Source of the DNA: Sphingobium fontiphilum
GTDB lineage: Bacteria > Pseudomonadota > Alphaproteobacteria > Sphingomonadales > Sphingomonadaceae
Assembly: GCF_014196635.1 (NCBI RefSeq)
Contig: NZ_JACIEB010000003.1
Location: 248,001-312,000 of the forward strand
Length of the DNA stretch: 64,000 nt
Reading direction: 5' to 3'
Positions 647 to 18,117 of the stretch are shown here, piece by piece. Position 1 is the first letter of the stretch. The number at the start of each line of letters is the position of its first letter. Both the position numbers and the translations under genes were made by a program. A model generated the notes under the pieces. That model worked only from the letters and a program-made list of their open reading frames with translations, had not been told where the DNA came from and ran no database searches.

Positions 647-666
647 GAGATCAGAGGAGAACATCA

Positions 667-1221
667 ATGCCTAGCGGACCCTTTGCCCATGTGTGCATGG
701 TCGTGCGCGATCTGGACAAGGCCATCGAGGATTGGACCAGGATTCTGCGCGTGCTCGATCCCGCATCGCTGGAAGAGCGCATCGTCAAATATGACGAATT
801 TTCGAGCGGCGACGACGCCGGCATGAAATGGGCGACCTTCGTCAACAATGGCGGCACGGAAATCCAGTTCATTCAACCGGCGCCAGGCACTCCTATGGGT
901 GATCGTCTCGAAAAGGTGGGCGAGCATGTCCATCACCTCTGCTATGCGACCGACGACGTGCCGGGCGCGATGGAAAAGCTCAAGGCCGAGGGGCTGCACC
1001 TGCCCGGCGGCGGTCAGACCTTCAACGACCCGGACATGACCTGGCAGAAGTGGAGCTGGGTCGGCCACAAGAGCACGCACGGCGCGCTGATCGAAGTCGC
1101 CTCGCCCTACGAGAGCCGCAACGATGGCAAATGGCACCATGCACCGGGTAAATTCGCCTATAAGGGTCCTGGCGAACACCCCTCTTTCGCCGAGATGGTC
1201 CCGCCGATCGCGGCTGAGTGA
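667..1221 (+). CDS. VOC-superfamily protein (glyoxalase/dioxygenase fold)
   Basis: This 184-residue protein has an AGAGGAGA ribosome binding site just upstream of ATG 667. The N-terminus (FAHVCMVVRDLDKAIEDW, residues 5-22) is the first beta-alpha-beta-beta-beta module of the vicinal oxygen chelate fold, with a candidate metal-ligand His at residue 7. The second module contains VGEHVHHLCYATDD near residues 86-99 with further His ligands. Members include glyoxalases, epimerases such as methylmalonyl-CoA epimerase and extradiol dioxygenases. The acyl-CoA-type neighbours make an epimerase or a ring-fission-related role possible. It abuts the next gene with no spacer (TGA followed directly by ATG), so it is part of the same operon. 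Confidence 0.75.
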   Translation: MPSGPFAHVCMVVRDLDKAIEDWTRILRVLDPASLEERIVKYDEFSSGDDAGMKWATFVNNGGTEIQFIQPAPGTPMGDRLEKVGEHVHHLCYATDDVPGAMEKLKAEGLHLPGGGQTFNDPDMTWQKWSWVGHKSTHGALIEVASPYESRNDGKWHHAPGKFAYKGPGEHPSFAEMVPPIAAE

Positions 1222-2828: not shown

Positions 2829-2894
2829 AACCGGCGGCCGCCTTCAACCCGGCCGCCGCTGCGCAGCCACGCCGCCGCCCCAATTATGGATGCG

Positions 2895-3245
2895 CTAGCA
2901 GAAACGGGCGCGGGACGGCGCGAAATTATGCATATGCGCCCTGCCGGGGCATATGAAGAGCTGGATGTCTTCGGCACTTTCATAGGCACGGGGTGCGCCA
3001 ATGGAATCGGGAACGACGTCGCGTTCGCCCATGGCGATCAGCACCGGGACGCGCACTGCCACCGCTTCCAGCGCGACCGCGCCCGGCGCGACCATATATA
3101 CGCTGCAGGGCGGCGTTGTCGCCGAACGCCATTCGGGCAGCGGATCGATCAGCCCTGCCGACGCCATCATGTCGCGCGTGACGATGTCGGCGGGCTCATC
3201 ATCATGGTGGAAGGACCATTGGAAAGGACGCTTGCCTGCCCTTGC
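2895..3245 (-). pseudogene. Alpha/beta hydrolase remnant (C-terminal part only)
   Basis: On the minus strand an open frame ending at 2895 encodes the last third of an alpha/beta hydrolase. It contains VRVPVLIAMGERDVVPDS, the strand carrying the acidic catalytic residue, and later PGRAHMHNF, which carries the catalytic His. Further upstream the frame stays open (QWSFHHDDEPADIVTRDMM) to about 3245, but no nucleophile elbow or start region exists before the neighbouring terminator and gene. The N-terminal two thirds have therefore been lost. The longest ATG-initiated piece would be 91 residues (2895-3170). The exact 5' breakpoint is uncertain. It is read as a broken gene, not a short functional protein. 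Confidence 0.6.
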
Positions 3246-3274
3246 CGTTCCCTTCGGCGACGGGTCCTCTTGAA

Positions 3275-3307
3275 CCGAACCGGCGGGCCATCGCCCCGCC
3301 GGTTCGG
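3275..3307. terminator. Perfect 13-bp hairpin, probable terminator
   Basis: CCGAACCGGCGGG and CCCGCCGGTTCGG form a perfect 13-bp stem around a 7-base loop. It lies 8 bases past the stop of the minus-strand SnoaL-like gene that ends at 3316. No long T-run follows on either strand, so it could also be an extragenic palindrome or an mRNA-stabilising 3' hairpin. Confidence 0.55.
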
Positions 3308-3315
3308 CGCTTCGA

Positions 3316-3840
3316 TCACTTATAGGGATCGACGGGCTGGGGAACGTTGATGACTTCCAGATCCTTCAGCATCGTCAGCACGTCGGAGATCGAATAGATG
3401 TGATCGATCTTGTCGCCACGGAAACGCAGCCAGGAAAACCAAAGCACGTTGAGGTCGTTGCCGGTCGGCTGGACGCCCATATAGGGACCGCCGGTATGCT
3501 TGCCATGGTGATGGCACAGCACGCAGATCTCGTCCTCGCCGCGGCCCCAGGCCTTGAGCGTGCGATAGATGCTGGGCGGGAAGGTCTTGTAGAGGCCCTG
3601 CGGCGAGGTCTTCCACACATGATAGGTGCCAAGGTCGGGGCGGTTGGGATTGTCGTAGGTCATGGTGTCGGTATTGAAAAATACGTCCATTCCATCCCAA
3701 TCGCCGCGATTGATGACTTCATGCAGATCCATCCAGTGGTTGACCATGAACGCCTGCCGCTCGGTCAGCCCTTCTGTAATTTCCGCCCGCTTCTCCTTGG
3801 ACAGGACGAAATCGGCTTCCGTGAACGGGGCGAGGCCCAT
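3316..3840 (-). CDS. SnoaL-like (NTF2-fold) protein
   Basis: This 174-residue protein starts at ATG 3840, preceded by a clear AAGGAG seven bases upstream. A longer frame to 3921 exists but lacks such a site. The core WMDLHEVINRGDWDGMDVFFNTD, then YDNPNRPDLGTYHVWKTSP, is characteristic of SnoaL-like/ester-cyclase NTF2 folds, which make a cone-shaped pocket used by ketosteroid isomerases, polyketide cyclases and dehydratases. A cluster of His and Cys (CVLCHHHGKHTGG) near residue 108 is notable and could bind a metal. It is one of three NTF2-fold proteins in this cluster. It is transcribed alone, away from the operons on the plus strand. Confidence 0.75.
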   Translation of the reverse strand: MGLAPFTEADFVLSKEKRAEITEGLTERQAFMVNHWMDLHEVINRGDWDGMDVFFNTDTMTYDNPNRPDLGTYHVWKTSPQGLYKTFPPSIYRTLKAWGRGEDEICVLCHHHGKHTGGPYMGVQPTGNDLNVLWFSWLRFRGDKIDHIYSISDVLTMLKDLEVINVPQPVDPYK

Positions 3841-4005
3841 AATAGTCTCCTTGAAAAAATCGGTCCGCGGGGATGGTCCCTCAGCCTGTGATTTCTTCGC
3901 CATCGTCGCCGCGCCCGGCACCTACCTAATGGAAGGCGGCGCGCCTGCCGCACTATGTCAGCAGGGATTCTATAGAATGATGTGAGATGGCGGAGAGGAG
4001 AGGGC

Positions 4006-4461
4006 GTGACGCTGACCCTGCAGGAAATGTCGGACCGGTTCGAAATCCAGGATCTGATCGTTGGCTATTGCTATGCGGTGGACACGCGCGATTGGGATGG
4101 GCTGGACCGCTATTTCACCGAAGACGCGGTGATCGACTATTCCGAAATGGTGGGCGTGGTCGGCGGCCTCGCCGAAATCAAGGCGTTCCTCTCTGCCAGC
4201 CTGACGCCGATTCTCGCCTTCCAACATGCCGTGTCCACCACCCAATATAAGATCGCCGGCGACCGGGCGCAGACCAAGACCGCGTGCTATAATCCCATGA
4301 CGGTCAGCAATGGCGAAACGACCGATACGCTCGTCTTTGGCCTTTGGTATCATCATGACTTTGTCCGGACAGCGCAGGGGTGGAAGATCAGCCGCCTCTA
4401 CGAACAGAAATGCTATCGCATGAATGTGCCGGACTGGCTCGCGGCGCAATTGCCCGCCTGA
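4006..4461 (+). CDS. SnoaL-like (NTF2-fold) protein
   Basis: This is a nuclear-transport-factor-2-like protein of about 151 residues. I chose GTG 4006 because GGAGAGGAG lies just upstream; a second GTG at 3982 has no comparable site. The motif pattern LQEMSDRFEIQDLIVGYCYA, DTRDWDGLDRYF and EDAVIDYS is the SnoaL_4 signature (small-molecule-binding NTF2 fold with a conserved Asp pair in the D-x-R-D-W helix). Members include dehydratases, isomerases and oxygenase partner subunits. The C-terminal WKISRLYEQK strand completes the fold. It lies 40 bases before the membrane PQQ dehydrogenase and is probably co-transcribed with it. Confidence 0.8.
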   Translation: MTLTLQEMSDRFEIQDLIVGYCYAVDTRDWDGLDRYFTEDAVIDYSEMVGVVGGLAEIKAFLSASLTPILAFQHAVSTTQYKIAGDRAQTKTACYNPMTVSNGETTDTLVFGLWYHHDFVRTAQGWKISRLYEQKCYRMNVPDWLAAQLPA

Positions 4462-4501
4462 AATCCCACAACGCCTTTTTCAAGTTGCGAATGGAAGCCT
4501 G

Positions 4502-6838
4502 ATGCGCCGCTCTCTGAACATGCTTTTCGTCCTGGTGTTGTTTCTCGCGGGCCTGTCGCTGCTCTGGCTGGGCGGACAACTCGCGCTGCTCGGCGGATCG
4601 CCCTGGTATGGCGTTTCAGGCCTCGTGATGACCGCCACAGCCATTCTGGGCTGGCGCCGTTCGCCACTCTCGATCACCCTCTATTGGGCCTTTCTCGCCG
4701 CCAATCTGGTCTGGTCGCTTTGGGAAGTCGGACTGGACGGCTGGGCGCTGGCGCCCCGGTTGGCCATGCCCGTCGCCATGGGCCTCTACATGCTCACGCC
4801 CTTTTATCGGCAGCATGTCGGGCTTGGCCGTCCCTTGCCTGGCGGCCGCGTCCTTTGGCCCGCACTTCTTCTGCTCGTCACAGGCTCGGTCGGCGGCGCT
4901 TTCTGGGCAGATCTTTCGCCCTCGGCTGCCAGCGCGCTCAGGGGAGCGGGGCCTGCAAGCCCGGCCGATGGCGAATGGCTCGCCTATGGCAACGACCGGG
5001 GCGGGTCGCGCTATTCGCCATTGGCCCAGATCACGCCCGCCAACGTCGGCAATCTGGAAAGGGCATGGACCTACCACACCGGCAAACTGACCGACGGCAA
5101 ACAGGGGACCGCCTTTCAGGCCAATCCCCTCAAAGTCGGCGATCGCCTGTTCCTGTGCGCGGGCAATAATGATGTGATCGCGCTCGACCCGGAAACGGGC
5201 CGGCAATTATGGCGGCACCAGCCCAAGACGGATCTGGCCGGAGTCTATGGCCTCGTCTGTCGCGGCGTCACCTATTATCGCGTCCCGCAAGCCGATGGCC
5301 TCTGCGCCGAACGCATTTACACCGCGACGCTGGACGCCCGGCTGATCGCGCTCGACGCCGCCACCGGCCGGCCATGCCCCGGCTTTGGACGGGACGGTCA
5401 GGTGGATTTGAAGGCCGGGCTGGGCACGGTCGAGAAAGGCTATTATTTCGTCACATCGCCCCCCGCCCTGGTGCGCGGCCGCCTCGTCCTCGGCGGCTGG
5501 GTGATGGATGGTCAGAAGATCAAGGAGCCTTCCGGCGTGATCCGGGCGTTCGATGCCGTCTCGGGCGCATTTTCCTGGGCCTTCGACATCGGCCGGCCCG
5601 ACGACCACGGCCCGCCGCCGCCCGGCGGCGTCTTCACGCCGGGCACCCCCAACAGCTGGGCGCCGATGAGTTCGGACGAAGGGCTGGGCCTCGTCTATGT
5701 GCCCACAGGAAATGCGACGCCGGACTATTTCGGCGGACATCGCACCGCCAATGACGATCGCTATTCCAGCGCCGTGCTGGCGCTTGACGCGGAAAGCGGG
5801 GCGGTGCGCTGGTCCTTCCAAACGACTCACCATGACCTTTGGGACTATGACGTGCCCGCCCAGCCCACGCTGGTCGACCTGCCCGGCGGCGTGCGCGGCC
5901 TGCTCCAGCCGACCAAGCGCGGGGAGATTTTCTTCCTCGACCGGGCGACCGGCAAGCCCATTCTGCCGGTGGAGGAACGCCCCGTTCCGCAAGGCGCCGT
6001 TCCCGGCGAACGCCTTTCGAAAACCCAGCCCTATTCGGTTGGCATGCCCAGTTTCGGCGGTCCGCGCCCGACGGAAATGGGCATGTGGGGCCTGACGCCG
6101 ATCGACCAGGCCATGTGCCGCATTCGCTTCCGGCAGGCCCGCTTCGACGGGGACATGACCCCCTTGTCGACCGAGCATCCCACCCTGACCTGGCCCGGCT
6201 ATCTGGGCGGCATCGACTGGGGCGGCGTATCGGTGGACCCCAAACGCGGCCTGATGATCGTCAACAACAACCAGGTCAGCAACTATAATCGGCTTATCCC
6301 CCGCGCCGTTGCGGACCGCCAGGGCATCAGGCCGATGACCGCCGCCCATATGAGCGATGTCGGCGGCCCCGTCGCCCAGCAGGGCGTGCCCTATGCCGCG
6401 CATATCGCGCCTTTCCTTTCCCCTCTGGCCATTCCCTGCCAGCAGCCCCCCTATGGCCGCATCAACGCGGTCGACCTGAAAACCGGGAAACTGGTGTGGA
6501 GCCGCCTGTTCGGCACATCGCGCGACAGCGGTCCACTGGCCCTGCCGACCTTCGTGCCGATCCCCATGGGCGTGCCCAATATCGGTGGATCGGTCGCGAC
6601 CGCGAGCGGCCTCACCTTCATCGGCGCGACGCAGGAGCATATGTTCCGCGCTTATGAAACCACCACCGGGCGGCTGCTTTGGAAGGCGCGCTTGCCGGCG
6701 GGCGGCAACGCCTCCCCCACGACCTACTGGTCCAACGCCAGCGGGCGCCAGTTCGTGGTCATCGCGGCGGGCGGACATGGCGCCATGCTTTCGGGTTCGA
6801 GCGATGCGTTGATCGCCTATGCCCTGCCCAAACAATAG
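4502..6838 (+). CDS. Membrane-bound PQQ-dependent dehydrogenase (glucose/quinate dehydrogenase family)
   Basis: This 778-residue quinoprotein starts at ATG 4502, which places a hydrophobic region at the very N-terminus. The first ~150 residues contain about five membrane segments (LNMLFVLVLFLAGLSLLWL and onwards). From about residue 160 the beta-propeller begins with EWLAYGNDRGGSRYSPLAQI, the standard opening of GCD-type PQQ enzymes. Repeated tryptophan-docking blades such as LIALDAATGRPC and VLALDAESGAVRW follow. These enzymes oxidise sugars, cyclic acids or alcohols in the periplasm and pass electrons to ubiquinone. The substrate is not evident, and no pqq biosynthesis genes are in the window. 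It sits among SnoaL-like genes, unlike the usual sugar context, so a terpenoid or alicyclic alcohol substrate is conceivable (inference). Confidence 0.9.
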   Translation: MRRSLNMLFVLVLFLAGLSLLWLGGQLALLGGSPWYGVSGLVMTATAILGWRRSPLSITLYWAFLAANLVWSLWEVGLDGWALAPRLAMPVAMGLYMLTPFYRQHVGLGRPLPGGRVLWPALLLLVTGSVGGAFWADLSPSAASALRGAGPASPADGEWLAYGNDRGGSRYSPLAQITPANVGNLERAWTYHTGKLTDGKQGTAFQANPLKVGDRLFLCAGNNDVIALDPETGRQLWRHQPKTDLAGVYGLVCRGVTYYRVPQADGLCAERIYTATLDARLIALDAATGRPCPGFGRDGQVDLKAGLGTVEKGYYFVTSPPALVRGRLVLGGWVMDGQKIKEPSGVIRAFDAVSGAFSWAFDIGRPDDHGPPPPGGVFTPGTPNSWAPMSSDEGLGLVYVPTGNATPDYFGGHRTANDDRYSSAVLALDAESGAVRWSFQTTHHDLWDYDVPAQPTLVDLPGGVRGLLQPTKRGEIFFLDRATGKPILPVEERPVPQGAVPGERLSKTQPYSVGMPSFGGPRPTEMGMWGLTPIDQAMCRIRFRQARFDGDMTPLSTEHPTLTWPGYLGGIDWGGVSVDPKRGLMIVNNNQVSNYNRLIPRAVADRQGIRPMTAAHMSDVGGPVAQQGVPYAAHIAPFLSPLAIPCQQPPYGRINAVDLKTGKLVWSRLFGTSRDSGPLALPTFVPIPMGVPNIGGSVATASGLTFIGATQEHMFRAYETTTGRLLWKARLPAGGNASPTTYWSNASGRQFVVIAAGGHGAMLSGSSDALIAYALPKQ

Positions 6839-6980
6839 CGTGCACCGCGAAGCCGACGCATCGCGCCGGCCGGGCAAAGTCGATAAAAAACCGGATGTTG
6901 CCTGCCCGATCCTACCCTTTGGCGGGCAAGATCGGGCGACGCGACCTTATGTTTCTCCTGACAACAAGGGGAGGAAGAAC

Positions 6981-7424
6981 ATGCCAGCACATGGCAGTCT
7001 GCTGAGACGCTTGCCAGTCTGCGCCGAGGATGAACGAGCAATCAAACATGTGCTGCTGCGTTACGCCACCGGTATAGACACAAGGGACTGGCCTTTGTTT
7101 CGGACCTGCTTCGCCCAGGATTGCGAGACAGATTATGGCAGCTTCGGGCATTGGCGCGGGCCGCGCGAAATCGCCGAATATATGGCCGATGCGCACCGTC
7201 ACATGGGGCCGACGCTGCACCGCATCACCAACATCGTGATCGAGAAGCGTGACGACCAGGTGCACGCGCGCAGTTATGTCGACGCGATCCTGCCTGAAGC
7301 GGCTCAGGGCGGCATGACCCACAGAGCGACCGGCTATTATGACGATTGCCTGGTTCGCACATCGGAGGGATGGAAAATTTCCAGGCGGAAATTCACCCTG
7401 GTCAAGGCCGGGCTGGATGGCTGA
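6981..7424 (+). CDS. SnoaL-like (NTF2-fold) protein
   Basis: This 147-residue protein has GGGAGGAAG directly before ATG 6981. The helix pattern ERAIKHVLLRYATGIDTRDWPLF, the region CFAQDCETDYGSFG and the closing WKISRRKFTLVKAG strand match SnoaL_4 domain proteins of the NTF2-like fold. It is clearly related in layout to the 4006-4461 gene (shared DTRDW and the C-terminal WKISR motif), so the two may be diverged paralogues acting on related substrates. The stop codon overlaps the start of the following MDR reductase by eight bases, which suggests coupled expression. Confidence 0.8.
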   Translation: MPAHGSLLRRLPVCAEDERAIKHVLLRYATGIDTRDWPLFRTCFAQDCETDYGSFGHWRGPREIAEYMADAHRHMGPTLHRITNIVIEKRDDQVHARSYVDAILPEAAQGGMTHRATGYYDDCLVRTSEGWKISRRKFTLVKAGLDG

Positions 7425-8418
7425 CTCCAACCGTCAGGTGCTGTTGACGTCGCGTCCGGCGGGAATCGCGCAGGCGGAAAATTTCGCGATCAGACAGGCG
7501 CCGATCCAACAGCCCGCACCGGGTCAGATCCTGGTCCGCAATCATTATCTCTCTATCGAACCCGCCATGCGCGGCTGGATCGCCGATGCCGGCAATTATG
7601 CCGCGCCCGTGCCCATTGGTTCGGTGATGCGCAGCCTTGCCTCCGGCGAGGTGGTCGCCTCTGCGCATCCCGACTATGCGGTCGGCGAGCATGTGACCGG
7701 CTGGTTCGGCTGGCAGGATTATGCCTGTGTCGACGCCGATCAGGTCGTGCAACGCACCACCGCGGACGAGATGCGGGCGTCGCTCGGCATTTTGGGCATC
7801 AACGGCATGACGGCCTATCTGGCCCTCACACTGGTCGGCCAGCCCCGTGCAGGCGAGACCGTCCTGGTATCCACGGCGGCTGGCGCGGTCGGTTCGGCCG
7901 TTGGCCAGATCGCCCATATCCTTGGCTGCCGCACGATCGGGATAGCCGGCGGCCCGGCCAAGGTGCGGCGTTGCGTGGAGGAATATGGCTATGACCGCGC
8001 GCTGGATTATCGCGCCGGAAATCTGGCGGCCGCGATCAAAGGCCATGCGCCCGAGGGGATCGACATTTATTTCGACAATGTCGCTGGCGCGATAAGCGAT
8101 TCGGTTCTGCCGCATCTGGCCCCGCGCGGGCGCGTGATCGTGTGCGGGACGGCGTCGATCGACCGCTGGGATCCCTGGCCGATGGGACCGCGCGTCGAAC
8201 GCCATCTGCTCGTCAAACGCGCCCGCATGGAGGGTTTCGTCATCTTCGACCATGCCGATCGCTATGCCGAAGCGACAGCGCAATTGCGGACATGGATCGC
8301 GCAGGGCCGTCTGACATGGCGCGAGGACATATTGGACGGGATCGAATCCTGCCCCGACGCGCTGGCCGGTCTTTATCGCGGCGAAAATGACGGCAAGCGG
8401 CTCATCCGTCTCGTCTGA
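7417..8418 (+). CDS. MDR-family NADP-dependent oxidoreductase (CurA/LTB4DH-like)
   Basis: This 333-residue zinc-free medium-chain reductase starts at ATG 7417 inside the SnoaL-like gene. The domain order is canonical: an N-terminal GroES-like part with YLSIEPAMRGWI, a nucleotide-binding Rossmann loop STAAGAVGSAVGQIA near residue 150, and IDIYFDNVAGAISD and RARMEGFVIFDH further on. These features mark the CurA/leukotriene-B4 dehydrogenase group, which reduces activated double bonds of alpha,beta-unsaturated ketones using NADPH. With the SDR that follows 21 bases later it could reduce and oxidise the same cyclic ketone intermediate. No zinc-binding Cys cluster is visible. Confidence 0.85.
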   Translation: MADSNRQVLLTSRPAGIAQAENFAIRQAPIQQPAPGQILVRNHYLSIEPAMRGWIADAGNYAAPVPIGSVMRSLASGEVVASAHPDYAVGEHVTGWFGWQDYACVDADQVVQRTTADEMRASLGILGINGMTAYLALTLVGQPRAGETVLVSTAAGAVGSAVGQIAHILGCRTIGIAGGPAKVRRCVEEYGYDRALDYRAGNLAAAIKGHAPEGIDIYFDNVAGAISDSVLPHLAPRGRVIVCGTASIDRWDPWPMGPRVERHLLVKRARMEGFVIFDHADRYAEATAQLRTWIAQGRLTWREDILDGIESCPDALAGLYRGENDGKRLIRLV

Positions 8419-8439
8419 TCTGGGAAGAGGATAACAGTC

Positions 8440-9165
8440 ATGGAGAATCTGGAAGGACGGATCGCCATCGTTACCGGCGCGTCGTCGGGCATCGGCGCGG
8501 CCAGCGCCGGCGCCCTTGCCGAAGCGGGCGCGACCCTGGTGCTCGTCGCTCGCCGCGCCGACCGCCTCACGGCGCTGGCCGATGAACTGGGCCGCGACAG
8601 CACCGTCTTCGCGGCCGATATGGCGGACCCGGACGCGCCGCAAAGGCTGCATGATTTCGTCCTGGGTCGCTTCGGCCGCGCCGACATATTGGTCAACAAC
8701 GCCGGTATGCTGCATGCCGCGCCGATCGATGCGTTCGACCTTGATCAGTTGCGCCCGATGATTGCGATCAACTATGAGGCGGTGGTGCGCGCCAGCACCC
8801 TTTTTGCGCGGACGATGAAGGCGGCTGGAAGAGGGCAGATCATCAACATATCCAGCATCGGCGCGAACATCACCGCCCCTGGCGTGGGCGTCTATGGCGG
8901 GCTCAAGCGCGCGCTGGAAGCCTTCTCCGATTGCCTGCGGGTCGAACTCGCCGGATCCGGCGTCAAGGTGGGCATCGTCGCGCCGGGCACGACCAGCACC
9001 GAGATTTTCGAGGATATGAAGGCCAGGGGACAGCCGTCGTGGGACAGCTTCATCCCGCCGATGCAACCGCAGGATGTCGCCGAAGCCGTCGCCATCATCG
9101 CGCGGCAGTCCGCCCGCACCAATATCGCGCGTATCCAGGTCTATGCCGACGCCGACAGCCATTGA
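8440..9165 (+). CDS. SDR-family oxidoreductase
   Basis: This 241-residue classical short-chain dehydrogenase has every key element intact. TGASSGIGAASAGAL at residues 12-26 binds the cofactor, ILVNNAGML follows near residue 85, the serine is in IINISSIGAN, and the catalytic Tyr/Lys pair is Y-G-G-L-K. LVARRADR after strand 2 suggests NADP preference. It acts on a hydroxyl/keto group of an unknown cluster metabolite. A GGAAGAGG sequence lies upstream of ATG 8440. It is probably the last gene of the plus-strand run beginning at 6981 and faces an oppositely oriented flavoprotein gene. Confidence 0.88.
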   Translation: MENLEGRIAIVTGASSGIGAASAGALAEAGATLVLVARRADRLTALADELGRDSTVFAADMADPDAPQRLHDFVLGRFGRADILVNNAGMLHAAPIDAFDLDQLRPMIAINYEAVVRASTLFARTMKAAGRGQIINISSIGANITAPGVGVYGGLKRALEAFSDCLRVELAGSGVKVGIVAPGTTSTEIFEDMKARGQPSWDSFIPPMQPQDVAEAVAIIARQSARTNIARIQVYADADSH

Positions 9166-9196
9166 CGCCCCTGCTCGCGCCGGCGCCGTCGCGCGA

Positions 9197-10345
9197 TCAG
9201 TCGAGCGTGGCGTAGGCCTCCAGCCGGAACGGATTGACCGCGCCGCCATCGCGCATCTTCCTGACCCATTGCGCGTCCATCAGCAGGGCGCGGCCGACGG
9301 CGATCAGGTCGAATTCACCCCGCGCCATCCTGTCGGCCACCAGCGCCAGATTGTCGGTCATCACGGTTGGCTGCGCAAAGGAGGATTGCAGATCCTTGCT
9401 GAGGCCCACCCCGCCGACCGCGATGGTCGGTTTCCCGGTCAGCTTCCTGGCCCAACCCGCCAGCCCCATGTCGGAACCATCGAAGGCCGGCGCCGTGAAA
9501 ATGCGGGTGCTGGCGTCGAAAATGTCCACCCCCGCATCGACGAGCGGGGCCAGCATCGCTTCCAGTTCGGCCGGGGTTTCCGCGTTGCGCGCGTCATAAT
9601 CCTGCAGCTTCCACTGGGAAAAGCGGAAGATGACCGGAAAGTCGGGAGCGGTCGCCGCCCGGATTGCGCGCACCAGTTCGACCGCGAAGCGCGCGCGCTC
9701 GGCGATCCCGCCGCCCCAGCGGTCGTCCCGCACATTGGTATAGCGCCACAGGAAACTGTCGATCAGATAGCCATGCGCGCCATGCAGGGCCACGCCGTCG
9801 AACCCCACAGCCTTCGCATTGGCCGCGCTGCGGGCGAAGGCGGCGATCAGGTCGCCGATCTCGCTGTCGGTCAGCGGCGCGGTGGGCGCGCGCACCTGTT
9901 CCAGATAGTCGGGAGAGACCATCGCCTTGTCGGTCGGGCCCCAAATGCCCGAGGGGCGCGCCGAGGGCGCATCGGGATGATAGCCCGTGCCCGGCACGCG
10001 TATGACGCCCTGATGCCACAATTGGGGGATGATGAGGCCGCCCGCCGCATGCACGCCATCCACGATGGAGCGCCAGCGCGCCAGGGCTTCGTCGCCATGC
10101 AGGACGGGCGAAGCGCCGCCCCCCATGGTTTCACGCCCCACGGCGGCGGGATGGTCCACGCCCACGCCTTCGGTGATGATCAGTCCCACCTCGGCTTCGG
10201 CCCGTCGTCGATAATAGCCCGCCACGCCGTCCGAGGGGAGGCCGCCCGGCGAGAAATTGCGGGTCATCGGCGCCATCACGAACCGGTTGGGCAGATGCAG
10301 AGCGCCTGCCGCAAACGGCGTATACAATATCTCGACCTGCCCCAT
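9197..10345 (-). CDS. NADH:flavin oxidoreductase, Old Yellow Enzyme family
   Basis: This 382-residue TIM-barrel flavoprotein starts at ATG 10345 with GGAGAGGAC just upstream; an extended frame to 10441 has no support. LPNRFVMAPMTRNFSPGG at residues 15-32 is the FMN-binding N-terminal strand. The substrate-binding residues appear in LHGAHGYLIDSFLW near residue 185, and the phosphate-binding end is TIAVGGVGLS and LIAVGRALL. OYE proteins reduce electron-poor C=C bonds of enones. No iron-sulfur C-terminal extension is present, so it is not of the dienoyl-CoA reductase type. It shares the minus strand with the ferredoxin 108 bases upstream and may be co-transcribed with it. Confidence 0.9.
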   Translation of the reverse strand: MGQVEILYTPFAAGALHLPNRFVMAPMTRNFSPGGLPSDGVAGYYRRRAEAEVGLIITEGVGVDHPAAVGRETMGGGASPVLHGDEALARWRSIVDGVHAAGGLIIPQLWHQGVIRVPGTGYHPDAPSARPSGIWGPTDKAMVSPDYLEQVRAPTAPLTDSEIGDLIAAFARSAANAKAVGFDGVALHGAHGYLIDSFLWRYTNVRDDRWGGGIAERARFAVELVRAIRAATAPDFPVIFRFSQWKLQDYDARNAETPAELEAMLAPLVDAGVDIFDASTRIFTAPAFDGSDMGLAGWARKLTGKPTIAVGGVGLSKDLQSSFAQPTVMTDNLALVADRMARGEFDLIAVGRALLMDAQWVRKMRDGGAVNPFRLEAYATLD

Positions 10346-10453
10346 CAAAGCGGTCCTCTCCAATGCATGTCGCAGGACCGTGCAGCAGGGGATGGGCCCC
10401 AAGAACCTATCGTGTGACAGGACATCCACGCCCCGGCGCATAAGGGAAACGGC

Positions 10454-10660
10454 TCAGTCGGGCTCGATGGCAAGGGCGAATTGCGGGCAGGCGTCGGCGC
10501 CTTCCCGGGCCTGCTCCTCCAGTCCTTCAGGAACGATTTCATCGTCCACATAGACGATGCCGTTGGCGTCAAGCTTGTATACTTCGGGGCAAATTTCTGC
10601 GCAAACGCCATAGCCGCAGCACGCCGCCTTATCGACAACCACTTTCAGTTTCTGGCTCAT
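10454..10660 (-). CDS. Small ferredoxin (3Fe-4S/4Fe-4S type)
   Basis: This 68-residue protein starts at ATG 10660 with AAAGGAGAGG before it. The cysteines lie in KAACCGYGVCAEICPEVYKL (residues 9-28) and in a final ADACPQFAL, the layout of single-cluster ferredoxins that feed P450s and ring hydroxylases. The YGV spacing, with no Cys at the fourth-iron position, fits a 3Fe-4S cluster, although the doubled Cys leaves 4Fe-4S possible. The divergent neighbour is a Rieske oxygenase, so it was plausibly its electron donor. That oxygenase is now broken, so the ferredoxin may be orphaned or serve another oxygenase elsewhere. Confidence 0.88.
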   Translation of the reverse strand: MSQKLKVVVDKAACCGYGVCAEICPEVYKLDANGIVYVDDEIVPEGLEEQAREGADACPQFALAIEPD

Positions 10661-10697
10661 CCATCCTCTCCTTTCGAATGGCGCGCGCATTACAGTT

Positions 10698-10714
10698 TGA
10701 ACAGATTAAGTTCA
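10698..10714. promoter_or_regulatory. Inverted repeat TGAAC-N7-GTTCA in divergent promoter region
   Basis: TGAAC AGATTAA GTTCA is a perfect 5+5 inverted repeat in an AT-rich stretch between the divergent ferredoxin and Rieske genes, so it is placed where an operator for both would be. No regulator gene is adjacent in the window. The function is inferred from symmetry and position only. Confidence 0.4.
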
Positions 10715-10759
10715 GTATGTATAAATCGATTCAACCGGGGAAATCTCCCGGAGAGCAAG

Positions 10760-11098
10760 ATGCTGCACAAGGCCGGGCTGCCGCTGAACGACGGAATGAC
10801 GCCTGACGATCTCATCAACCGCGACATGAACGAGGCAGCGCTGCGGGTGATGAATGACAAGAAATTATATGACCGGGAGATGGAGCAGGTGTTCGCCCGC
10901 ACCTGGCTGCTCCTTTATCACGAGTCGTAAATTCCCAAGGCCGGCGACTATGTCATGCGCAACATGGCCGAAGACAATGTGATTGTCTCGCGCGACCGCA
11001 GCGGCAAAATCCACGTCATGCTGAACGTCTGCCCCCATCGCGGCATGAAGGTGTGCGCGGTCGAATCGGGCAACGCCGATGCGCATCGCTGCATCTAC
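10760..11098 (+). pseudogene. Rieske ring-hydroxylating oxygenase alpha subunit, N-terminal remnant with nonsense codon
   Basis: A good GGAGAGCAAG site precedes ATG 10760. The frame encodes the N-terminus of a Rieske non-haem iron oxygenase (MEQVFARTWLLLYHES) and then hits TAA at 10928-10930, where relatives usually carry Gln or a similar residue. Past the stop the same frame continues convincingly (IPKAGDYVMRNM, then LNVCPHRGMKVC) to about 11095. The first half of the Rieske cluster motif, C-P-H, is present. The second half should read C-x2-H but reads C-I-Y-R because a deletion joint falls exactly there. The iron-sulfur site is therefore destroyed, and about the middle half of the protein is gone. 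The gene cannot make a functional oxygenase. Confidence 0.85.
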
Positions 11099-11385
11099 CG
11101 CAGACCTTCAAGATGTTTGCCGACGCCAGCTTCGAACGAACGTCGACCGAAGAGCGGTTCCATCTGCCGCCGGCGCCGCGCATCATCAAGGAGTTGATCC
11201 CTCAGCTTCTCAAGAAGCTGTCGGAGGGCCAGGCCAAGCAATTGGCCAACATCCTGATCGCCTTCATCTTCGCCCCCCGCACGGCTGGCGGCGCCTCGGG
11301 CGCCCTCGCGCTGCGCACCTATGTGCCCAAGGGACCGGACAAGGTGGAGTTCGTGAATTTCATCTTTGCCGAAAACGCCGTCGCT
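11099..11385 (+). pseudogene. Rieske oxygenase alpha subunit, C-terminal remnant fused in frame to the following flavoprotein
   Basis: This segment is in a different frame (+1) from the N-terminal remnant. It encodes the tail of a Rieske oxygenase catalytic domain: a helix IIKELIPQLLKKLSEGQAKQL like the R-L-S-x-x-Q-A motif of these enzymes, then LALRTYVPKGPDKVEFVNF, the conserved strand pair (R-x-W/Y-x-P-x-G-P-D) near the C-terminus. The mononuclear iron ligands (2-His-1-carboxylate), which lie upstream in intact homologues, are absent. No stop separates it from the acyl-CoA dehydrogenase-like sequence, so a second deletion joint lies near 11380. Translation could initiate at ATG 11053 or 11113, giving a chimera. 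Confidence 0.75.
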
Positions 11386-11391
11386 GGTGCG

Positions 11392-12465
11392 ATGGTTGAG
11401 AAGGCGCACAGCTTCCGCGCTTTCCTGCAGGGCGAAGCGCCCGAGGGCGAAAAGCGGCGCAGCCTCACGCCCGCCGTCGACAAAATGCCGAAGGAAGAGG
11501 GCTTTCTGCGCATGCTTCTGCCGCAACGGCTGGGCGGCATGGGCCTTTCCCACACGGATTTCTGCCGGGTGCGGATGGCGATCGCCAAAGGCGATCCGGC
11601 AATCAGCTGGGTGATCCAGATCATCAGCGGCACGAGCTGGATCACCAGCATGGCGCCCGGCGGCGTGCAGGACGCCGTGTTGGGCGACGGTCCCCGGCCG
11701 GTCTGCGGCGCCTACAACCCGCCCCGCAAGGCCCGCAAGGCTGACGGCGGCTGGATCATTAGCGGCACATGGCCCGATATGTCCGGGTCGCGGCAGCCGA
11801 ACTGGGCGCAGCAGAGCGTGGTGCTGGAGGGGTATGACGGCCCCGTGGTTCCCGGCATCAGCATGTGCTATCTGCCCATGGACAACATGACCATCCAGGA
11901 TACCTGGTTCGTTTCCGGCATGCAGGGCACCGGTTCCGATACGGCTATTGCCAAGGATGTGTATATTCCTGAGTCCCAGCCGGTTGTCCGCACCACCGGT
12001 ATCGCCCAACTGATCGGCGCGGTCGAGGCCATGCTGGAGATCGTGACCGCGGAATCGCCCAAAAAGCCGGTGCTGACGACGATCATTGGCCCCCGCACCA
12101 AGTCGGGCGCCGAAATGCGCGATCTGGGCGAAGCGGCCGCGATGATCGACACCGCCAAGCTGATCCTGTTCGACCTGACCGAGAAGGCGGACCGTGTCGG
12201 CCTGGGCGAGGCGTTCACCCTTGCGGAAAAGGCCAAGCAGCGGGCGGGCGGCCCGCAGATGATCGCATTGGTCCACACCGCCAGCGAACCGCCGATGTTC
12301 CAGGCCGGCTCCTCCGGCTTTGCTTTGGACAAGCCGATCAACCGCTACTGGCGTGACATTTCGATGGCGCTGCGGCATATCGAGAATATCCAGACCATCG
12401 GCTATGAAATCTATGGCCGCAATTTTGCGGGAGCCGATCCCATTTCGCCTCCGGGCGGATATTGA
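11392..12465 (+). CDS. Acyl-CoA dehydrogenase-fold flavoprotein (HsaA/group D monooxygenase-like), 5' end affected by fusion
   Basis: From about residue M at 11392 the frame encodes roughly 357 residues of an acyl-CoA-dehydrogenase-fold protein. EEGFLRMLLPQRLGGMGL is the N-terminal helix-turn of the family. GGWIISGTWPDMSGSRQPNW and WFVSGMQGTGSDTAIAKDVYIPE are the middle beta-domain strands as in HsaA-like flavin monooxygenases, and ALRHIENIQTIGYEIYGRNF ends the C-terminal helical bundle. No Glu catalytic base typical of beta-oxidation enzymes is obvious, which favours a hydroxylase-type role with a separate flavin reductase. There is no recognisable ribosome binding site at 11392, and the open frame extends upstream into the Rieske remnant. 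The native start may have been deleted, and expression is doubtful. Confidence 0.7.
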   Translation: MVEKAHSFRAFLQGEAPEGEKRRSLTPAVDKMPKEEGFLRMLLPQRLGGMGLSHTDFCRVRMAIAKGDPAISWVIQIISGTSWITSMAPGGVQDAVLGDGPRPVCGAYNPPRKARKADGGWIISGTWPDMSGSRQPNWAQQSVVLEGYDGPVVPGISMCYLPMDNMTIQDTWFVSGMQGTGSDTAIAKDVYIPESQPVVRTTGIAQLIGAVEAMLEIVTAESPKKPVLTTIIGPRTKSGAEMRDLGEAAAMIDTAKLILFDLTEKADRVGLGEAFTLAEKAKQRAGGPQMIALVHTASEPPMFQAGSSGFALDKPINRYWRDISMALRHIENIQTIGYEIYGRNFAGADPISPPGGY

Positions 12466-12526
12466 GATCGACACGGCATAATGGAAACAGGGCTGCCCGT
12501 TGAAAAGCGAGCGGCCCTGTCCCGCC

Positions 12527-12551
12527 TGCAGCTTGGCTGCATCTGTTTTTT
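12527..12551 (+). terminator. Rho-independent terminator after the flavoprotein gene
   Basis: TGCAGC-TTG-GCTGCA forms a perfect 6-bp hairpin with a 3-base loop followed by TCTGTTTTTT. It lies 61 bases beyond the flavoprotein stop and 12 bases before the next start, so it would separate the decayed oxygenase operon from the following reductase operon. Confidence 0.7.
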
Positions 12552-12563
12552 GAGAGGTATGGC

Positions 12564-13484
12564 ATGCGCGCTGCGCTTATCGACACGACCGGCCGCTTGG
12601 CCCTGACGGAGCATCCGGAACCCACCGCCCAGCCCGGTCACCAGGTGATAGAGGTTTCCTCGGCCGGAATCGGCCCCACCGACCTGATGCGCGCCAAGGG
12701 CTTTTTTGGGCCCATCGGCGCGCCCTATGTGCCGGGCAGCGAAGGCGTCGGTCGGCTTGATAATGGCCAGCGCGTCTATTTCGGCCACAGCAAGGCTCCT
12801 TTCGGCGCCATCGCTGAAAGGACGCTGGTTGCAGAGGAGGAAATCTGGCCAGTTCCCGACGATTTGCCCGACGATCAGTTGATCGCGCTGGCCATTTCCG
12901 GCACCGGCGCTCTTATCCCGCTGGAAGAAGCAAAGATCGCCAGGGGCGAGTCTGTCCTCATCCTCGGCGCAACCGGCCCGGTCGGTCAGATCGGCGCGCA
13001 GATTGCCCGGCTGCTTGGTGCGGGCCGCGTTGTCGCGGCGGCGCGCAACCGGGAACGGCTGGAGGCGATGCAGGCCGCCGGTCACGCCGATGCCATCGCC
13101 ATATTGGGCGAAGGGGATGACGACGCGGCGCTGAAAGCGGTTGCGGATGGCGGCTTCGACGTCGTGCTCGACATCATCTACGGCCCGCCCGCCGAGGCCG
13201 CGATGCGCGCCACCCGCCCTGGCGCCCGGATGATGAGCATCGGCGTTCAGGCCGGGCCCACGGTCGCGCTGACACTGCGCGATCTCGTTTTCCGCAGCCA
13301 TGTCGGCGTCGGCACCGGGCAGCGGCCCGCCGGCGAGCGCCGCGCCGCCTATGGCCGACTGATCGACATGGCCGTGACACAGGGCCTGACGGTCGATACC
13401 CGCCGCCATGACTTTGCCGATGCGACGCAAGCATGGGCCGCGCAGGCGGGCAGCCCGCACGGCAAGATCATCATAAGCCGCTGA
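12564..13484 (+). CDS. MDR-family zinc-free quinone/enone oxidoreductase
   Basis: This 306-residue medium-chain reductase starts at ATG 12564 with GAGAGG upstream. Its N-terminal catalytic domain contains VSSAGIGPTDLMRAKG and PYVPGSEGVGRL, where the GroES-like fold binds the substrate. The Rossmann domain has SVLILGATGPVGQIGAQIA near residue 131 (the A/G-x-G-x-x-G loop). No structural or catalytic zinc cysteines are evident, so it resembles QOR-type enzymes that use NADPH on quinones or enones. It begins directly after a terminator and 4 bases before the beta-helix gene, so it probably heads a short operon with it. Confidence 0.85.
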   Translation: MRAALIDTTGRLALTEHPEPTAQPGHQVIEVSSAGIGPTDLMRAKGFFGPIGAPYVPGSEGVGRLDNGQRVYFGHSKAPFGAIAERTLVAEEEIWPVPDDLPDDQLIALAISGTGALIPLEEAKIARGESVLILGATGPVGQIGAQIARLLGAGRVVAAARNRERLEAMQAAGHADAIAILGEGDDDAALKAVADGGFDVVLDIIYGPPAEAAMRATRPGARMMSIGVQAGPTVALTLRDLVFRSHVGVGTGQRPAGERRAAYGRLIDMAVTQGLTVDTRRHDFADATQAWAAQAGSPHGKIIISR

Positions 13485-13488
13485 ACAT

Positions 13489-14076
13489 ATGGGTAGCCCG
13501 TCCTATGTCGACCCGACAGTCCGAATGTTCGGCGACGTCCGGCTGAACGACGATTGCAGCCTTTGGCCCTATGCCGTTGTGCGCAGCGAACGGGCCTATG
13601 TGTCTGTCGGGCGGTGCGCCAGCGTTCAGGATCACGCCATGGTCCATATTGGCTGGGACGATCCGACCATCATTGGTGATTATTGCACCATCGGTCACCG
13701 CGCCGTCGTCCATGGCTGCACGATGGAGCCCGCCTGCCTCATCGGCGTAGGTGCGACCATCATGGAACGCTGCGTCATCGGTCGGGGTTCTATCGTCGCC
13801 GGGCACAGCTTCCTGCCGCCGGGCGCCGTGATCCCGCCCCACTCGCTCGTCATCGGAACGCCGGGACGCGTCGTGCGCCGGATAGACAAGCTGCGAGCGA
13901 ATGTCGTCGACGCCCTTCTGTATCGCGACAATGCCCGCGCCTATGCCAAGGGTGAGCACCGCGCCTGGGAAGGGTCTGACCTTGCCGAGTTGGGGGAGGA
14001 GGCCGACACCATCCTTGCGCGCGAGGCGGCAGGCTGGAATGCCGCTGGCATAGCCGACACCTCCAATGGCGAGTGA
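13489..14076 (+). CDS. Gamma-carbonic-anhydrase/PaaY-like left-handed beta-helix protein
   Basis: This 195-residue hexapeptide-repeat protein contains the family's metal-site pattern. AMVHIGWDDPTIIGDYCTIG, GHRAVVHGCTMEP and CLIGVGATIMERCVIG supply three candidate His ligands across adjacent turns of a trimeric left-handed beta helix. LPPGAVIPPHSLVIGTPGRVVRRI closes the helix and a C-terminal alpha region (AYAKGEHRAWEG) follows. Relatives include gamma carbonic anhydrases and PaaY/CaiE thioesterase-like proteins, the latter linked to phenylacetyl- or carnitinyl-CoA catabolism, which suits this cluster better. The stop codon overlaps a GTG start of the broken nitroreductase behind it. Confidence 0.88.
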   Translation: MGSPSYVDPTVRMFGDVRLNDDCSLWPYAVVRSERAYVSVGRCASVQDHAMVHIGWDDPTIIGDYCTIGHRAVVHGCTMEPACLIGVGATIMERCVIGRGSIVAGHSFLPPGAVIPPHSLVIGTPGRVVRRIDKLRANVVDALLYRDNARAYAKGEHRAWEGSDLAELGEEADTILAREAAGWNAAGIADTSNGE

Positions 14077-14212
14077 AGCAATCATGCCCAATACCCCTGC
14101 CGGCCCGCACGCATAGTGGCTGGAGCGATCGGTCCGTGTCGGACGAGAGGATAAGGGCTGTCTATGATCTCGCGAAATGGGGGCCGACCGCCGCGAACAG
14201 TCATCCGGGCCG
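14073..14212 (+). pseudogene. RutE-like nitroreductase remnant (N-terminus only)
   Basis: A GTG at 14073 overlaps the beta-helix gene's stop (GTGA). The short frame reads THSGWSDRSVSDERIRAVYD followed by LAKWGPTAANSHPGR, which is the N-terminal FMN-binding part of RutE/HadB-type nitroreductases (W-G-P-T-x-A-N-x-x-P-x-R). A few residues usual between the start and this motif look deleted. Homology stops at about 14212, exactly where the IS5-type relic begins. It was therefore probably cut by insertion or an IS-mediated deletion, and it cannot encode an active enzyme. Confidence 0.7.
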
Positions 14213-14650
14213 TTCCACCCGACAATCACAGGCTGACAGGACGTTCGTCAGCATCGACGAGAGCGTCGAGCCCGATGATATGGCCACTCCCGGAACGTCC
14301 GATGCCATGATCAGTAGATCCCCCTTTTACCCGTCGCACCATGTTGGCGGACGCGGATGCAGGGGAAATCGATCATGACCAGTTCGCCTTCGAAGCCGGC
14401 GGAAATTGCCGTCAGCAGCCGGTCCCCCATGCCAGCCTTTCGCCAGCGGACGAACGGATTGGAGCAGGTCGTCCATGGTCCATAGCGTTCTTCAATATCT
14501 CCGCCCAGGGCGGGCCCTACCGGAAACGCCACAAGATAGCGCTGAGCACCCGTCGGTCATCGACCCGGTGCACAACCGCCGCTTTTTGGGCTGCAAGGAC
14601 TCGATGATGAGCCATTCCTTGCCAGTTCATACCGCCGCCGCGACATGCGC
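14205..14650 (-). mobile_element. IS5-family transposase relic (IS427-like), frameshifted
   Basis: Read on the minus strand, consecutive fragments in changing frames match IS5-type transposases. A piece near 14640-14600 reads KEWLIIESLQPKK. A second reads HRVDDRRVLSAILWRFR, and a third reads ERYGPWTTCSNPFVRWRKAG then AISAGFEGELVMIDFPCIRV. A last piece near 14220 reads LVDADERPVSL before a stop. The family normally has R-Y-G-P-x-x-T-C-x-N-R-F-x-R-W and M-I-D-S-S, so the second DDE-region residues are already mutated (MIDF). Several indels and stops make it dead. No inverted-repeat ends could be identified, so the boundaries are approximate. Confidence 0.75.
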
Positions 14651-14725
14651 CCGCCGTTCTTGAAAGACGTCTGAAGCACCGCCTCAGCGAAGGCTCAACT
14701 CAATTTATGAGTTCACGCCCTCAGC

Positions 14726-15796
14726 CTATTCCTCGTCTTCCGCATCCGGGCCGGTCATCATGCTTTCGGCCACTTCGTCGGTCTTGCCGCGGATCGCCCG
14801 TTCCAGCTTGTCGGCCAGTTCGGGATGTTCGCGCAAATAGGTCTTGGCGTTCTCGCGCCCCTGCCCGATCCGGACAGAATCATAGGAAAACCAGGCGCCC
14901 GACTTTTCGACCAGACCAGCCTTCACCCCCAGATCGAGCATTTCGCCGATCTTGGAAATGCCTTCCCCGAACATGATGTCGAATTCGACCTGCTTGAAGG
15001 GCGGGGCCACCTTGTTCTTCACCACCTTCACCCGGGTCGCGTTGCCGACGACATCGTCGCGATCCTTGATCTGGCTGATGCGGCGAATGTCGAGGCGGAC
15101 CGAGGCGTAGAATTTGAGCGCATTGCCGCCGGTCGTGGTTTCGGGATTGCCATACATGACGCCGATCTTCATGCGAACCTGGTTGATGAAGATCACCATG
15201 CAGCGCGAGCGCGAGATGGAACCGGTCAGCTTGCGCAGCGCCTGGCTCATCAACCGGGCCTGAAGGCCGACATGGCTGTCGCCCATTTCCCCTTCGATTT
15301 CGGCGCGCGGCACCAGCGCGGCGACCGAATCGACCACCAGCACATCGATGGCGTTGGACCGCACCAGCGTGTCGACGATTTCCAGCGCCTGTTCGCCAGT
15401 GTCGGGCTGCGACACGATCAGTTCGTCGATGTCGACGCCCAGCTTGCGGGCATAGACCGGGTCGAGCGCATGTTCCGCGTCGATGAAGGCGGCGACGCCG
15501 CCGGCCTTCTGCGCCTCGGCAATGGCATGGAGGGCGAGCGTGGTCTTGCCCGAGCTTTCCGGGCCATAGATTTCCACGATGCGGCCACGCGGCAAGCCGC
15601 CAATGCCCAGCGCGATGTCGAGTCCCAGCGATCCGGTCGAAATGGATTCGATCTCAAGCTTCTCGCGTGAACCCAGCTTCATCGCCGACCCTTTGCCAAA
15701 GGCGCGGTCAATCTGTGAAAGGGCGGCTTCAAGTGCCTTTTGTCTGTCCATGGTCCCCGTCTTCTTGGAATCTATGAGAGAGAGCATTGCGTTCAT
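14726..15796 (-). CDS. recA: Recombinase RecA
   Basis: This is a 356-residue RecA, the central strand-exchange ATPase and coprotease for LexA cleavage. The Walker [13 protein letters not shown] lies near residue 70, Walker B appears as [22 protein letters not shown] in two parts, and [22 protein letters not shown] is the L2 DNA-binding loop. [18 protein letters not shown] opens the core domain and an acidic tail (PDAEDEE) ends it. I chose ATG 15796 because AGGGGAT precedes it; an in-frame ATG at 15751 also has a G-rich upstream and remains possible. It is transcribed alone, with an SOS operator 77 bases upstream of the start, so it should be LexA-regulated. Confidence 0.98.
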
Positions 15797-15872
15797 CTGC
15801 CTATCCCCTGTCAAGCGGATCGCGCCGGCCTATCCCGGAGCCATGACGCCTTGTATCTGATTTGTTCCAGTC

Positions 15873-15887
15873 GAACAAGAAGAGAAC
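15873..15887 (-). promoter_or_regulatory. LexA (SOS) box upstream of recA
   Basis: On the recA strand the sequence is GTTC-TCTTCTT-GTTC, an exact match to the alphaproteobacterial LexA consensus GTTC-N7-GTTC. It lies about 77-91 bases before the chosen recA start, a normal promoter-proximal position. LexA binding here is established for relatives and inferred for this gene. Confidence 0.88.
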
Positions 15888-15927
15888 AAAAGAGGCGGAG
15901 AGAGCAATAACCATATGATTTTTCGCG

Positions 15928-16542
15928 CTATGGCAGGACATGCGCGGAGCGGATGACAACCGGATCTTCCAACATCTGCCCCTTCATCGCGCCCTCTCCG
16001 CGAGTCGCGGAACGCGGCGCCGCGACAATGGCGCGCACGACGTCCATCCCCTCCGTCACATGGGCGAACACAGCAAAGCCCGCATTGTCGCCCGGCGCTT
16101 CGGGCTGGGCATCCATGGCCATCATCCGGCCCATGACGATGAAAAAATCGCCGGTCGCCGTGCCCGGCGCCCACCGCGCCATCGACAAGGCGCCGTCATC
16201 ATGGACAAGGCCGGTCTGCGTCGTCGGTTCATGCGCGATCGGCGGCAGGATGCGGGTTGGTTCATTGCTGGGGCCGCCCTGGATGAAACCATAGTCGGCC
16301 GCGCCATAAGCGCGGTAGATGGTCGCGCCGTCAAACCGCTTCTCTTTGGCATAGCGCAGGAAATTGGCGGCGGTGATCGGGGCCTTGGTCAGATGGACCG
16401 TAATGGTAACCGGCCCGGCGCTGGTGTCGAGCCGCACGCGCGGATCGGGCGCGGCGGGCGTCTGCGCCAGCGCCGGCGTGATGGCGAGAAGAGCCAGAAG
16501 AAGGGTCAGGAGTCGAGCGATCATGGCGTGGATTCTAGCCAT
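15928..16542 (-). CDS. Periplasmic cyclophilin-type peptidyl-prolyl cis-trans isomerase
   Basis: This 204-residue protein opens with a signal peptide (MIARLLTLLLALLAITPALA) ending at about residue 26, so it should act in the periplasm. The cyclophilin core follows: RLDTSAGPVTITVHLTKAPIT, FLRYAKEKRFDGATIYRA (F-D-G-x-x-x-Y-R region), GFIQGGPSN and SMARWAPGTATGDFFIVMG. It catalyses proline isomerisation during envelope protein folding. The substrate loop FAVFAHVTEGMDVV is intact. Two closely spaced starts (16542 and 16524) are possible and give almost the same signal peptide. It lies between recA and dnaA on the same strand with 32 bases to dnaA's stop, so it may be read from the dnaA transcript. 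Confidence 0.88.
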   Translation of the reverse strand: MARIHAMIARLLTLLLALLAITPALAQTPAAPDPRVRLDTSAGPVTITVHLTKAPITAANFLRYAKEKRFDGATIYRAYGAADYGFIQGGPSNEPTRILPPIAHEPTTQTGLVHDDGALSMARWAPGTATGDFFIVMGRMMAMDAQPEAPGDNAGFAVFAHVTEGMDVVRAIVAAPRSATRGEGAMKGQMLEDPVVIRSAHVLP

Positions 16543-16574
16543 GGCGACACGCCCCTGTCACCCCCTGGATAAGA

Positions 16575-17987
16575 TCAGCCCTCGAGCTGACGACGCAGCG
16601 CGCGAATGTCGGCGTCGATTTCCGGGTGGCTCTGACGCAGCGCCTCGATGGTGCGGACGGCATGGATGACGGTGCTGTGATCGCGCCCGCCGAAGATGCG
16701 GCCGATTTCGGGCAGCGAACGCGGCGTCAGCTGCTTCGCCAGATACATGGCGACCTGGCGTGGGCGGGCAACCGCACGGGCGCGGCGCTTGGACCGCATT
16801 TCGGCCGCGTCGATGCGGTAATGGGCGGCGCAGACCTTCTGAATCTCGTCCACCGTGATGCGCCGGGCATTGGCGCGCACCGCGTCGGCCAGCATCGACT
16901 GGGCGAAATCGAGATCGATGGCGCGGCCGGTCAACTGGCCATAGGCGATCAGCTTGTTGAACGCCCCCTCCAGTTCGCGAACATTGGAGCGGATGGCGCT
17001 CGCCAGAAAATCGATCACCGGCTGCGGAACCGGCGGATCACCAGCGACCGCGCGCTTCGCCTCCAATATGGCGAGGCGCAGCGGCAGCGCGGCGGGCTGA
17101 ATATCCGCAACGAGCCCACCGGCCAGACGCGAGAGGATGCGCTGGTCGATCGCGTCAAGCATTTGCGGCGCGCGATCAGCGGTCACGACGATGCGCGCGC
17201 CGCTGTCGATCAGCTCGTTGACGGTGTGGAGAAATTCCTCCTGCGTCGACCCCTTGCCCGCAATGAACTGGATGTCGTCGATAAGCAGCAGTCGGGCCGC
17301 CCGCAACCGCGCCTTGAACGCCATGGTGTCGTTGGCGCGCATGGCGTTCACGAATTCCATCATGAACCGTTCGGCCGACATGTAGAGCACCGGATCCTGG
17401 GGCGAATGGGCGGAAAATTCCGCCGCAATGGCATGAAGCAGATGGGTCTTGCCCTGGCCGGTGCCGCCATGGATGAACAACGGGCAGTAACGCGGCTTGT
17501 CACGCCCCGCGACGCCCTGGGCCGCTGAAAAGGCCAGGCGATTGGTGTCGCCGACCACAAAGTCCGCGAAGCGGTGACGGGGATCGAAGTTGCAATGGGT
17601 GGCCGCGGGTTCGGAGGCACTTCCCGTGGCGGGCGCGGCGGCGTCGACCGCCACAGGCAATAATCGCGGCCCGACGGCCTGACGCGCGCGGACCATGCGG
17701 ACTTCGCGGACTTCGACATTGGCCGAGCGCCAAGCGAGCCGCAGCCGGTCGCCAAACTGGGCGGACACGAAATTGGCGGCGAAATCGGAAGGCAAGGCGA
17801 TGTCGAGCGTCTGCGATTCGGGGCAATAGTCGCCCAGTTCGGCGGGCTTGAGCCATTGATCGAACAGGCGGGCGCCCAGGTCGCGACGCAGGCCGACGCG
17901 GATCGCGGCCCAGACGGATTCCAGCCGGGCCATATCCGTCGCCAGACTATCCTCGCCATTCCACATCATGCCCGAACCGTTCGTCAT
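16575..17987 (-). CDS. dnaA: Chromosomal replication initiator DnaA
   Basis: This 470-residue AAA+ initiator binds DnaA boxes and opens oriC. Walker [19 protein letters not shown] lies in the middle, Walker B is [14 protein letters not shown], and the C-terminal helix-turn-helix carries the diagnostic [18 protein letters not shown]. The N-terminal domain ([20 protein letters not shown]) is the DnaB-interaction region. I start at ATG 17987; the open frame extends to 18074, but that part translates to unlikely sequence, and ATG 17934 is a shorter option. It is not next to dnaN but next to rpsT, as in Caulobacter-type chromosomes. The upstream 420 bases contain GANTC sites and a DnaA-box-like site that could autoregulate it. 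Confidence 0.97.
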
Positions 17988-18117
17988 CTGTCGCGTCGAC
18001 CCCAAAAACCACCCCCCGGGGAAATCCCGGCACAACGAACCCATTGCGAAAAGGCCCCCTCGCCATTCGCGCAACGTGCATTGCCAAAGCTGTCAAGACG
18101 GCCGCCTTAGGACTTGT

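Follow-up and report, generated by a model that had tools for sequence, protein, structure and literature searches.

A decayed ring-hydroxylating-dioxygenase core in Sphingobium fontiphilum, probably made redundant by an intact Novosphingobium-type module elsewhere in the genome

Analysis of a 64,000-nucleotide stretch of contig 3 of the Sphingobium fontiphilum genome (the window) revealed a locus that, on comparative sequence evidence, is what remains after decay of the core of a Sphingobium-type ring-hydroxylating-dioxygenase cluster. We propose, with good confidence, that an intact module of foreign type was gained elsewhere in the genome, that this gain made the older copy in the window redundant, and that the older copy then decayed. 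In this model, a second, Novosphingobium-type core on contig 5 would have made the window copy dispensable. The nonsense mutation and the deletions now seen in the window copy, two of the latter flanked by 9-11-bp direct repeats, would have followed. Catabolic genes next to it in the cluster stayed under purifying selection. We infer both redundancy as the cause and the order of these events. A previous sequence-only reading of this DNA had described a Rieske oxygenase gene decayed by a nonsense codon, a deletion and a fusion, a description now borne out by the lesions relative to intact clusters and by relaxed constraint.

The host genome is a 3.41-Mb, Sphingobium-type draft in 19 contigs, and most well-assembled congeners have larger genomes. 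Window positions 199-14088 are syntenic with S. abikonense NBRC 16140 (G001, locus L053; L053 and L035 are one contig of this strain), with ~89% identity over most of the length, and with at least nine further congeners at lower identity; upstream of the window, synteny with relatives continues for at least 12 kb. Intact syntenic clusters, which the sequence-only reading had recommended looking for in relatives, were found in at least ten Sphingobium genomes. The gene order in L053 is ferredoxin (opposite strand), Rieske alpha subunit (461 aa), beta subunit, ferredoxin reductase, SDR, TetR regulator, HsaA-like flavoprotein (414 aa), Zn-ADH, hexapeptide protein and nitroreductase. Among 94 congeneric genomes, the module was present in 13 genomes other than the host, with one open copy each, and only the host genome combined a broken copy with a second copy. 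Values of dS between the window and S. abikonense were 0.25-0.34 for the OYE and PQQ genes and 0.55 for recA, which weakens the case for strictly vertical descent of the window copy and hints that this older, resident-type copy may itself have moved between species.

Alignment to L053 resolved the alpha gene into two remnants. The 5' remnant (10760..11099, + strand) covers residues 1-113 of 461, shares 83% amino acid identity with the same residues of the L053 alpha subunit and retains a partial match to the Pfam Rieske model (1-63/88). The frame opening at ATG 10760 is interrupted by TAA at 10928-10930, after which Rieske protein sequence resumes up to CIYR at ~11098; the interruption of an otherwise continuous frame at 10928 was thus correctly called, and both intact copies inspected carry glutamate at this site (HESEIPKAGDY in L053 and HDTEIPNAGDF on contig 5). 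A deletion joint at 11099..11101 (+ strand), previously placed near 11095, removed a net 454 bp relative to L053, including the last part of the Rieske motif as well as the region of the catalytic iron site, and shifted the frame. As a result, the second half of the motif C-x-H-x(n)-C-x2-H, intact in L053 and in the contig-5 copy, reads CIYR instead of CIYH before the frameshift, and the 2-His-1-carboxylate iron site is absent, HTLTLH (L053 residues 218-223) lying inside the deletion. The catalytic domain remnant (11101..11375, + strand; about residues 266 to 367) has itself lost 33 bp at 11255, between copies of CCAACATYC. It ends at a joint on the 11-bp direct repeat TTYGCSGAAAA (11365..11375, + strand), where comparison with L053 revealed a deletion of ~3566 bp that took the alpha C-terminus, the beta subunit, ferredoxin reductase, SDR and TetR regulator genes and the 5' end of the flavoprotein gene. 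The L053 beta subunit (by tblastn), ferredoxin reductase, SDR and TetR regulator had no match within the window. Because the 33-bp and ~3.57-kb deletions each lie between short (9-11-bp) repeat copies, replication slippage or microhomology-mediated deletion is the most likely mechanism for both.

The second joint, put near 11380 by the sequence-only reading, does fuse the oxygenase in frame to an acyl-CoA-dehydrogenase-type protein. The fused partner is the remnant of an HsaA-like flavin monooxygenase of acyl-CoA-dehydrogenase fold (11365..12465, + strand), lacking its first ~20 codons and a further 84 bp (28 codons) deleted at 11979/11980, and the resulting ORF 11053-12465 (470 codons) consists of a piece of the oxygenase catalytic domain followed by this protein. 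Damage also extends to an alpha/beta-hydrolase-like gene (356 aa in L053; intact also on contig 5), of which a ~690-bp deletion at 3247/3264 left a remnant at 2859..3362 (- strand). This truncation, the 33-bp and 84-bp deletions and the loss of whole genes at the second joint add to the damage previously noted.

Most other genes of the block were retained. These include the single-cluster (Fer4_15/Fer4_13) ferredoxin (10463..10660, - strand), which shows no significant nonsynonymous excess, and, by comparison with relatives, the FMN oxidoreductase of the OYE family (9200..10348, - strand), the membrane-bound PQQ-dependent dehydrogenase (4502..6838, + strand), the zinc-type alcohol dehydrogenase/quinone reductase (12564..13484, + strand) and a hexapeptide-repeat, gamma-carbonic-anhydrase-like protein (13489..14076, + strand). 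The other genes between 199 and 14070 had no disrupting indels or stops relative to L053; a stop in SDR2 was rejected as a lesion, as it precedes the real start codon of that gene. The sequence-only reading that the ferredoxin and downstream enzymes remain therefore holds for the ferredoxin, Zn-ADH and hexapeptide protein, but not for the beta subunit, reductase, SDR and TetR regulator, which are gone, or for the flavoprotein, which is broken.

At the right edge of the syntenic block, a nitroreductase-like gene (14103..14213, + strand) is cut after ~49 codons. Remnants at 14214-14721, between this gene and recA, match two segments (G006:C3:464468-464819 and 466154-466302) of a region that contains several transposase-like genes, and are probably degenerate insertion sequences. 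Across 14213-18074 the catabolic block adjoins recA, dnaA and a gene resembling peptidyl-prolyl isomerases. In six congeners the block is distant from both recA and dnaA (in several, these are on a different replicon or contig), and the two genes are themselves widely separated, suggesting that this junction marks a rearrangement in the host genome or, less likely, a misjoin.

Selection on the broken and neighbouring genes was compared using private changes, defined as codons at which one lineage departs from a state shared by three relatives. In the window lineage, the ratio of nonsynonymous to synonymous private changes was 65:48 for the alpha, flavoprotein and hydrolase genes, compared to 48:235 for 11 neighbouring genes (Fisher p=5e-15), a contrast absent from the control lineages L053, L054 and L057 (p=0.70, 1.0 and 0.60, respectively). 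For alpha, dN was 0.078 between the window and L053 but 0.009 between L053 and L057, although dS was lower in the former comparison (0.27 vs 0.36). Estimated by simple subtraction, dN/dS on the window branch was ~0.5 for alpha and ~0.2 for the flavoprotein, above the 0.02-0.06 observed between relatives, indicating that constraint was gone for a sizeable part of the branch. The earlier suggestions of recent loss and of an error-prone assembly both fit poorly with the finding that private nonsynonymous changes, dozens in all, are confined to the broken genes, a pattern that points to decay over a substantial part of the lineage's history. In a flavoprotein tree, the window remnant grouped within Sphingobium, its end branch measuring 0.15, compared to 0.003-0.011 in its nearest sisters. 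Combining disrupting lesions with constraint relaxed on their own branch only, the broken genes are, by these sequence measures, pseudogenes. The neighbouring catabolic genes, being under purifying selection, probably still work, and probably act either alone or with the contig-5 enzymes.

Contig 5 of the same genome carries a complete, collinear module of 78% nucleotide identity (G000:C5:257126-262975), comprising alpha (84% amino acid identity), beta, reductase, SDR, TetR and flavoprotein genes, with Zn-ADH and ferredoxin on its flanks. The hydrolase that is truncated in the window is also present on this contig, intact and further along. The Pfam domains and the Rieske and His motifs of this copy are complete, and its dN/dS of 0.03-0.13 relative to the nearest relative indicates purifying selection. 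The contig-5 alpha, flavoprotein, reductase and SDR group in trees with those of Novosphingobium lentum and kin, and the nucleotide match to N. lentum is 85% over 9.8 kb, spanning 13 kb with gaps. Related modules are also carried by large plasmids of Novosphingobium and Croceicoccus, making mobility of the module plausible. Given this intact module, the earlier claim that the ring-hydroxylation step was lost is unsupported, as far as the sequence shows. Given the 84% amino acid identity and identical gene order, the contig-5 enzyme likely runs the reaction of the resident copy; should the two oxygenases differ in specificity, as they may, some function would have been lost.

Additional relatives of these genes were observed in the host genome. 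A window region with two retained SnoaL-like genes matches C5:233542-234624 at 76%. More distantly related is a third module, at G000:C6:254559-257131, which contains alpha (58% identity) and flavoprotein (~39% identity) homologues, both open, and another HsaA-like gene fragment, at G000:C11:171-593, contains three stops, the same number as an HsaA-like fragment in a congener (G082, C30:1118-1447).

The genes broken in the window are only roughly, and not exactly, those duplicated on contig 5: the ferredoxin and Zn-ADH are duplicated there yet kept in the window, and the two retained SnoaL-like genes likewise have a contig-5 match, so that redundancy appears permissive rather than a full rule. 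Our case for redundancy comes from a single genome, in which cause and coincidence are statistically inseparable. The same lesions would also be left if a catabolic trait had simply ceased to be useful and been lost, with no role for the contig-5 copy; a genome that is small for the genus would fit such general gene shedding, as would the cut in the adjacent nitroreductase. We nevertheless consider plain trait loss unlikely: contig 5 carries this gene set in intact and constrained form, and most other cluster genes have been retained with normal constraint, contrary to the expectation for a lost trait.

Assembly or sequencing error is very unlikely, because it would not give a nonsynonymous excess limited to the broken genes. 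Although the genome is a draft and two module copies at 78% identity could in principle mislead an assembler, the remnants share 89-90% identity with Sphingobium and form no mosaic with the contig-5 copy, their private nonsynonymous changes are scattered, and two deletion joints fall on short repeats. It is similarly hard to credit that the fused 470-codon ORF encodes a new functional protein, even though the 33- and 84-bp deletions left its frame open and Pfam models still match its flavoprotein part. The ORF has no recognisable start region, with a nonsense codon and a frameshift upstream, 28 internal flavoprotein residues are gone, and the private nonsynonymous to synonymous ratio of the flavoprotein (27:28 in the window vs 1:15, 3:16 and 8:20 in three relatives) shows a nonsynonymous excess. 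Conservation of the fused arrangement in other strains, which the sequence-only reading had said would overturn decay, was also not observed, the alpha-flavoprotein fusion being absent from every other genome searched.

Decay of a redundant resident copy after gain of a foreign one is a well-known kind of event, and the window provides a readable record of a redundant operon decaying, partly via short-repeat deletions, with its neighbours still constrained. A catabolic trait is not necessarily lost when a key gene of one cluster is broken, as the module can be intact elsewhere in the genome, a caution against predicting phenotype from one cluster. More tentatively, and with the balance leaning slightly against it, the surviving window genes (PQQ dehydrogenase, OYE-family reductase, SnoaL-like proteins, SDRs and ferredoxin) might serve the foreign core on contig 5; one catabolic pathway would then be built from two clusters of different origin. 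Among the papers searched, none combined Sphingobium with Rieske/pseudogene/HGT, or HsaA with a ring-hydroxylating dioxygenase.

Comparison with known systems places the intact homologues with the three-component ring-hydroxylating dioxygenases of the naphthalene/biphenyl/3-phenylpropionate group, with which they share Rieske and catalytic domains, a beta subunit and an FAD reductase. The best solved relative is a naphthalene dioxygenase large subunit (2b1x), and the best NCBIfam match is HcaE/HcaF, below equivalog cut-offs; no NCBIfam equivalog scored above cut-off for either the alpha subunit or the flavoprotein. The window copy differs from these dioxygenases in that its Rieske motif is cut short at the end and both the iron site and the beta subunit are missing, and the ferredoxin of the cluster is of the Fer4-type, single-cluster kind rather than a Rieske ferredoxin. 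The L053 flavoprotein matches the flavin-dependent monooxygenases HsaA (166 bits; cut-off 450) and XiaF (structure 5lvu), in contrast to which the window flavoprotein has no start and lacks 28 internal residues. Finally, a foreign-type intact copy and a decayed resident-type copy in one genome are likewise found in xenologous gene displacement, a term in use for replacement of a resident gene by a foreign homologue, for example in PMC1274311, PMC2651853 and PMC4166000. Consistent with such displacement, the closest kin of the intact contig-5 copy belong to another genus, Novosphingobium, in four gene trees. The case described here departs from it in three ways: the sequence of the decayed copy can still be read, the effect is confined to the core module, and the resident-type copy may also have been transferred between species.
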